This document shows positions 26,673-27,088 of a stretch of 52,818 bases of DNA, one piece after another. The notes under the pieces were generated by a model. That model was not told the origin of the DNA. It ran no database searches and saw nothing but the letters and a program-made list of their open reading frames with translations. Location: the NCBI GenBank assembly GCA_022710645.1, contig JAKLGL010000003.1, positions 1 through 52,818 of the forward strand, given 5' to 3'. The DNA comes from Patescibacteria group bacterium (GTDB lineage Bacteria > Patescibacteriota > Patescibacteriia > Magasanikbacterales > GWA2-37-8). The number at the start of each line of letters is the position of its first letter. Position 1 is the stretch's first letter. Position numbers and translations under genes: made by a program.

Positions 26673-26734
26673 AATGAGCGTTATTTTGTCTAATCAAAGC
26701 CAAAGACAAAATCGCAATAAAAATGGGCCGGTAG

Positions 26735-26753
26735 CCCCTCACCTATGCCTTTA
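26735..26753. repeat. Left terminal inverted repeat of the GIY-YIG element
   Basis: A 19-bp sequence, perfectly inverted at 27000-27018. Its last base is the A of the ORF's ATG. It follows GGGCCGGTAG of the copied tRNA 5' end. Confidence 0.9.
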
Positions 26754-27010
26754 TGTTTTATATCTATCTTATAAAAAGTAAAGTAGATGAGAGTACCTAT
26801 ATCGGCTATACAAATGATCTAAAAAGACGCTTGGTTGAACACAACAAAAGACTGAACAAGTCTACCAAGAACAAAGCGCCTTTTGAGCTCGTTTATTACG
26901 AAGCTTACAAAGAAATGGCTGACGCAAAACATAGAGAATTTAATTTGAAACGTTTTGCCAAAGCTTTTCAACAATTGAAACTACGCCTTAAGAACAGTCT
27001 AAAGGCATAG
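26753..27010 (+). CDS. Single-domain GIY-YIG endonuclease (UPF0213/YhbQ-like)
   Basis: The 85-residue protein is one GIY-YIG domain: 'FYIYLIKS' and 'TYIGYT' give the two catalytic strands, 'LKRRLVEHN' the conserved Arg, and 'AKHREFNLKR' the metal-binding Glu. These domains nick or cut DNA and occur alone in YhbQ-type proteins and inside homing endonucleases. Here the gene exactly fills the space between terminal inverted repeats inside a tRNA locus, so it is the likely mobility enzyme. It has no visible Shine-Dalgarno sequence and may be read from the tRNA transcript. Confidence 0.92.
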   Translation: MFYIYLIKSKVDESTYIGYTNDLKRRLVEHNKRLNKSTKNKAPFELVYYEAYKEMADAKHREFNLKRFAKAFQQLKLRLKNSLKA

Positions 27011-27018
27011 GTGAGGGG
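27000..27018. repeat. Right terminal inverted repeat of the GIY-YIG element
   Basis: A perfect inverse of 26735-26753. It contains the stop codon of the GIY-YIG gene (27008-27010), and its last three G are also the first three bases of the intact tRNA-Lys. Confidence 0.9.
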
Positions 27019-27088
27019 CCGGTAGCTCAGCTGGTAGAGCAATTCCCTTTTAAGGAAGAGGTCCCGGGTTCGAATCCCGGCCGGCCTA
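27016..27088 (+). tRNA. tRNA-Lys (UUU)
   Basis: The acceptor GGGCCGG/CCGGCCT (one G-T pair), D-arm GCTC/GAGC, anticodon stem ATTCC/GGAAG with loop CTTTTAA (anticodon TTT) and T-arm CCGGG-TTCGAAT-CCCGG form a standard cloverleaf. CCA is encoded (27089-27091), unlike the other tRNAs here. Its first bases overlap the right inverted repeat of the GIY-YIG element. Confidence 0.95.

Follow-up and report, generated by a model that had tools for sequence, protein, structure and literature searches.

A palindromic 284-bp insertion with a single GIY-YIG nuclease gene as a putative transposon-like element at a Patescibacteria tRNA-Lys locus

In the window, i.e., the whole stretch of 52,818 nucleotides that was analyzed, the start of a tRNA-Lys gene (11 bases, GGGCCGGTAGC) is found at positions 26725-26735 and again, 291 bp away, at 27016-27026, as a sequence-only reading of this DNA had noted. 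How did an intact tRNA gene come to be preceded by a second copy of its own start, with a small nuclease gene between the two, and is the DNA in between mobile? The data used here to address this question are comparative, with most of the genomes being metagenome assemblies, one per species.

Insertion into tRNA-Lys(TTT)

The tRNA-Lys promoter (plus strand; -35 TTGATT at 26644-26649, -10 TATCAT at 26667-26672) is followed by a remnant of the tRNA 5' end, which comprises nt 1-10 (GGGCCGGTAG, 26725-26734, plus strand). Adjacent to this remnant lies a unit of 284 bp (26735-27018, plus strand) that runs from CCCCTCACC to GGTGAGGGG and holds an ORF in the loop of its palindromic ends. The left terminal inverted repeat, CCCCTCACCTATGCCTTTA (26735-26753), has ends in common with L036, L037, L153, L161, L189, L156 and L137, and it pairs base for base with the right one, TAAAGGCATAGGTGAGGGG (27000-27018), in the minimum-free-energy fold. 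The inverted repeats had been described as perfect and 19 bp long; they are indeed 100% complementary, but they extend over 20 nt (26734-26753 and 27000-27019), of which 19 lie within the element. The ORF (26753-27010, plus strand) encodes an 85-aa GIY-YIG nuclease (PF01541, E = 2.2e-16), with an ATG that overlaps the left arm by one base and a TAG stop within the right arm, in agreement with the earlier description. The inverted-repeat score of the element was 20, compared with a 99th percentile of 11 in a null made of mismatched flank pairs from other GIY-YIG loci, the maximum of which (20) takes in palindromic repeats common to different loci. A chance origin of the inverted repeat is hence ruled out. 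Downstream, the tRNA-Lys(TTT) gene (27016-27091, plus strand) was recognized as intact both by ARAGORN and by Rfam (70.5 bits), as had been claimed.

An uninterrupted version of the same site was found in G002, which belongs to the same family as the window genome; the comparison of empty and filled sites spans different genera and not strains. There, the tRNA-Lys is undivided and lies, together with its promoter, between a Translin-family gene and MtaB; in the window, the corresponding neighbors are a Translin-family gene on the left (26022-26609, minus strand; PF01997, 3.7e-19) and the gene for the MtaB tRNA methylthiotransferase on the right (27621-28817, plus strand; TIGR01579), which is 60% identical in G002. 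In the alignment, the promoter upstream of the remnant is that of the empty site and is conserved in the window, G002 and G016, and in the window and G016 it is followed by the tRNA remnant, the GIY-YIG ORF and the intact tRNA. The palindromic repeats of the element were absent from G002. The sequence-only reading would have been abandoned if the repeats had proved to be part of an ordinary conserved intergenic region, a possibility that was looked at and to which the empty G002 site gives a negative answer. The element of G016 lies in the same tRNA-Lys, inserted after nt 6, and encodes a protein 54% identical to that of the window. Since the insertion points differ (nt 10 versus nt 6), the two elements likely stem from two separate insertion events. 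An assembly artefact was also considered and rejected, given that G016 has a diverged element of its own at this locus.

Comparison with the empty site shows the feature as an insertion into tRNA-Lys(TTT) after nt 10, with a duplication of 7 bp. The window can be parsed as GGG-CCGGTAG-[CCCCTCACC..ORF..GGTGAGGGG]-CCGGTAG-CTCAG, in which the left copy of the target duplication (26728-26734) corresponds to the last 7 nt of the remnant and the right copy occupies 27019-27025. The last GGG of the element (27016-27018) doubles as nt 1-3 of the tRNA, which are thus supplied by the terminal GGGG of the element. This parse was preferred because ORF-less copies fix the element ends at CCCC and GGGG, and for the same reason the alternative of an 11-nt tRNA copy carried by the element was dropped. 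Hence, the earlier proposal that the element rebuilds its tRNA target holds with regard to the intact tRNA but not to the means, which is a 7-bp duplication together with the terminal GGG: the tRNA-Lys stayed whole because the GGGG end of the element stands in for its leading GGG. The corresponding parse in G016 is GG-CCCG-[CCCCTCAC..GTGAGGGG]-CCCG-GTAGC, with a target duplication of 4 bp. Of the 44 tRNA genes in the genome (G000), 30 could be typed, all with different anticodons and with TTT found once; therefore, the genome probably has a single copy of tRNA-Lys(TTT), and its disruption by an insertion would probably be lethal. The locus shows how a single-copy RNA gene that is probably essential can be invaded and yet stay intact.

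End families, ORF-less copies and other GIY-YIG loci

A search for such ends around GIY-YIG ORFs of Patescibacteria had been suggested by the sequence-only reading, and a systematic inverted-repeat search around 171 of these ORFs was fruitful. The end YCCCNCACCW was common to eight elements located at different sites (window, G016, L037, L153, L161, L189, L156 and L137). The L037 element lies inside the 16S rRNA, whose full-length Rfam match is split by about 310 bp, and that of L153 (G148) inside the RNase P RNA, while the L161 element is situated just past the 16S 3' end, and those of L189, L156 and L137 are intergenic and retain near-perfect arms. The idea that tRNA is the specific target of the element was consequently given up, as its kin reside in 16S rRNA and RNase P RNA. 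The proteins associated with YCCCNCACCW ends fell into one clade of 14 tips (SH-aLRT 83) in a tree built without the C-terminal tail of the proteins; the L167 protein, encoded beside an RNase P RNA, belongs to this clade as well. In G148, two copies occupy the RNase P RNA gene, one autonomous and the other shorter and devoid of the ORF; their 17-bp ends are identical, and all four occurrences of this end in the G148 genome are within that gene.

Palindromes with the ends of the window family that lack the ORF were detected by pattern search in G000 (one) and G016 (six) and not in G002, with none in any of the three genomes for the reversed-pattern control. The G000 copy comprises 47 bp and directly adjoins a tRNA-Lys(CTT) gene, and one of the six copies in G016 adjoins its tRNA-Lys element. 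Perfect 5-bp target duplications (TCAAG, TCAAG and TTTGA) were present at three of the six G016 copies. Some genomes with an autonomous copy yielded no ORF-less palindromes, and target duplications vary (7, 4 or 5 bp, or none), several autonomous copies, e.g., L037 and L153, being without any.

A second end, CACCCCGTTAGAGA, pairs with a different protein clade, with one change on the tree compared with at least five in shuffles. L142 and L162, clade members missed by the first screen, also carry CACCCCGTTAGAGA, and L163 has it in a decayed form. Perfect ORF-less palindromes of this family were found in four of the 12 genomes tested, with five in G156 (shorter core pattern), and a perfect-match pattern gave none in seven relatives. 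At least three of these ORF-less copies show 5-bp duplications (ATGAA, ATGGA, ATAAA) with one fixed boundary. Together with the empty G002 site, which has the same promoter, the repeats support the earlier claim of an inserted mobile unit with real terminal inverted repeats.

Proximity to tRNA genes is a recurrent trait of GIY-YIG ORFs. Among 101 of them in close relatives (a set in which one locus is counted twice), 43 were located at most 150 bp from a tRNA, with the 3' end of the ORF facing the 5' end of the tRNA in 37 cases, whereas a same-strand tRNA 5' end at most 30 bp from the stop codon is expected (44 tRNAs in 929 kb) for about 0.1% of ORFs. In a second set from other families, 24 of 72 were tRNA-adjacent (20 within 30 bp), a proportion that is biased upward because the profile was built from tRNA-adjacent proteins. 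Most tRNA-adjacent ORFs are preceded by a 5' portion of the tRNA in question into which one or two hairpins are set, frequently at the D-, anticodon or T-loop; beyond the hairpins, the tRNA sequence continues for a few bases and is separated from the ATG by a short spacer. Hairpin type tracks the protein, not the tRNA: it is shared by the nearest protein with a different isotype and a different host family in 23 of 31 cases (shuffles: mean 4.9, maximum 14). In the nine genomes tested, one type of hairpin recurred as a dispersed repeat, some of it within genes.

Several individual loci add to this picture. At L067, L002, L119, L127, L134 and L146, a CCCGCCCG-type hairpin is set in the D-arm and accompanied by related proteins, the same unit occurring with different tRNAs (Lys, Asn, Phe, Thr, Pro and Val). 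A 30-nt double hairpin (TCCGCC..GGCGGACCAGCC..GGCTGG) is dispersed across L197-L221, also in protein genes such as an apparent miaA. In L042 (G054, 200-1200), the genuine tRNA-Trp is preceded by two identical GIY-YIG units in tandem, and in front of each unit stands a pseudogene resembling tRNA-Trp whose anticodon region contains a hairpin. At L092, L113, L084, L051, L072 and others, the stop codon of the ORF comes from the tRNA, e.g., from the universal U8A9G10, and the last residues of those proteins are therefore tRNA-coded. L003 (1465-1782), in the window's own genome, contains a second GIY-YIG gene bounded by a 22-nt, 91% inverted repeat (ATCCCGCCCTTC..) that resembles another dispersed hairpin, and in L187 (G188) a direct repeat of ~26 bp (CTAAGAAAA.TAGGTGTGCGGGTAAA), and no inverted one, is found on both sides of the GIY-YIG ORF.

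A third group consists of one clade, in which 21 ORFs have inverted GTCATTCC..GGAATGAC repeats on either side, compared with five of 1083 control positions. Its members (L061, L093, L097, L115 and 17 other ORFs) are GIY-YIG proteins of ~99 aa, and this clade is a candidate mover of the widespread REP-like GTCATTCC repeat. The GIY-YIG profile matched 206 of 287 Patescibacteria genomes. A contig search with a five-protein subfamily reached beyond this phylum: a mirror-image type at tRNA 3' ends also occurs in Cloacimonadota and Neomarinimicrobiota, and a tRNA 5' type in Ignavibacteria. At L249, L251, L257 and L261 (Cloacimonadota, Neomarinimicrobiota), an intact tRNA is followed by the GIY-YIG ORF and then by the tRNA 3' half, in which a hairpin replaces the T-loop.

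The GIY-YIG protein and how the element might move

In Pfam, the ORF matched PF01541 above cut-off and the related PF10544, and nothing else; in particular, it matched no DDE, HUH, serine or tyrosine transposase family. The 85-aa protein has the active-site set of the GIY-YIG superfamily (Y, Y, R, H, E), and residues of catalytic type (Y5, Y16, G18, R26, H30 and E62) are invariant in 35 relatives. Its nearest solved structures are UPF0213 (1zg2, 1ywl) and SLX1, and its NCBIfam matches are sub-threshold. Other origins were also considered. Matches to group I intron and phage homing endonuclease models were weak, as were those in PHROGs; a phage origin was set aside, as no relative was found in viral contigs. 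A group I or II intron was likewise discarded, since the Rfam gathering search of 16 loci, among them those of the window, L036 and L037, detected none, and no PADLOC match pointed to a defence system.

We consider it fairly probable that this feature represents a transposon-like element that is palindromic, minimal and autonomous, with family-specific ends of the CCCCNCACC type around one GIY-YIG nuclease. Insertion, conserved ends, duplications, ORF-less derivatives and the pairing of ends with protein clades emerge from the comparisons described above, and to these we would add, by inference, catalysis by the GIY-YIG protein as the putative mobilizing enzyme, an intermediate and a choice of target. 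The protein may recognize the palindromic ends extruded as hairpins or cruciforms and, as a relative of the structure-selective SLX1 nucleases, might cut at the ends and at the target, with host repair filling the staggered gap. Insertions would then survive at the tips of RNA helices that tolerate a hairpin, as in 16S rRNA and RNase P RNA, and also between genes or where a tRNA gets rebuilt. We know of no GIY-YIG protein that transposes DNA. For the broader proposal that GIY-YIG nucleases mobilize the CCCCNCACC and CACCCCGTTAGAGA elements, the hairpins set into duplicated loops of tRNAs and also the REP-like GTCATTCC repeats of Patescibacteria, we see the chances as even.

The weak homing endonuclease matches, together with the GIY-YIG fold being a classic homing fold, bring up the reading of a homing element, whose enzyme would cut the uninterrupted tRNA or rRNA allele for host recombination to copy the element from a donor, the inverted repeats merely keeping the RNA fold or acting as cis hairpins. 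Many relatives do lie in conserved tRNA loops, and the long partial tRNA copies could serve as homology arms. However, allelic homing predicts neither the same ends at unrelated sites, intergenic DNA included, nor short target duplications along with ORF-less copies, and the hairpin type of the tRNA class follows the protein across isotypes and host families in the 23 of 31 cases given above, so that we regard homing as unlikely, yet as the strongest of the rivals.

Copies without the ORF point to ends that can be moved in trans, as would be expected if an unrelated transposase encoded elsewhere moved the palindrome and the GIY-YIG gene were a passenger. The tight pairing of end family and protein clade in two families argues against this, as does the fact that no other gene was seen recurring with the ends in the loci read; we hold it to be improbable. 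Finally, the arms of the element pair perfectly in the transcript (-39.3 kcal/mol), and other copies sit within 16S rRNA and RNase P RNA genes, which would fit a stable host gene with a long hairpin acting at the RNA level, like an RNase III-trimmed rRNA intervening sequence, whose mobility was ancient only. In the intergenic L189, L156 and L137 copies, no RNA fold is known that would require the near-perfect arms, which speaks against a purely RNA-level role of the repeats, and the empty site and separate insertion positions make this last reading a very improbable one.

Comparison with known systems

Small palindromes dispersed together with one small protein are also a hallmark of REP/RAYT (TnpA-REP) systems, with few copies of the gene and more non-coding ones. 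Dispersed palindromes matching the flanks of the gene were likewise found for the window family and the GTCATTCC class. In contrast, the RAYT is an HUH tyrosine transposase and its REPs bear a GTAG tag, whereas here the enzyme would be GIY-YIG, the ORF lies in the loop of the palindrome, and Pfam detected no HUH (Y1) transposase (TnpA-REP) within the element. With insertion sequences and MITEs, the element shares conserved terminal inverted repeats, short target duplications and ORF-less derivatives, the dispersed copies carrying 5-bp target duplications as MITEs do; it differs in lacking a known transposase and in having an 85-aa GIY-YIG domain as the sole gene of a 284-bp unit, a size that would rank it among the smallest autonomous transposons. 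The element thus resembles a REP/RAYT or IS/MITE partnership in the way it works, but because an HUH or DDE enzyme is absent, it falls under neither definition.

Intervening sequences (IVS) of 23S rRNA also insert in an RNA gene with complementary arms and an ORF inside, but their protein is different (four-helix IVP) and they are not in tRNA genes, the host gene here being a tRNA; to our knowledge, no dispersed ORF-less copies with target duplications are known for them. The GIY-YIG homing endonucleases of group I introns have the nuclease fold in common with the element, which is not an intron by Rfam and has shared ends at unrelated sites. UPF0213/YhbQ and SLX1, the latter being a repair nuclease, are the best matches of the 85-aa protein among solved structures, and we do not know of either as mobile.

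Brown et al. are said to have described GIY-YIG insertions in rRNA genes of CPR bacteria in 2015. Such insertions were left unexplained in the parts consulted of Tsurumaki et al. 2024 (PMC11270868). They belong to the same phylum, have a GIY-YIG ORF in rRNA and are not intron-like, L037 being such a case; terminal repeats, insertions in tRNA, RNase P RNA or intergenic DNA and ORF-less copies are not described in those parts. The present proposal would explain as one mobile class both these inserts and the many lone GIY-YIG genes of ultra-small genomes. In the open-access papers searched, which together with the known transposase families served to judge novelty, there was no report linking GIY-YIG to tRNA insertion, MITEs, REPs, RAYT or target duplication in bacteria, which agrees with the earlier impression of a design without a described family; the element is one member of a large and diverse class, which includes derivatives lacking the ORF. 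If the proposal is true, these elements would form a class of minimal DNA transposons that prefer structured RNA genes and work without known transposase chemistry, and the class would supply a candidate enzyme that is neither HUH nor DDE for small palindromic repeats, whose movers are mostly unknown. Set beside these systems, the element looks like an undescribed kind of mobile DNA, whose relatives throughout the phylum occupy genes for tRNAs, ribosomal RNA and RNase P RNA.
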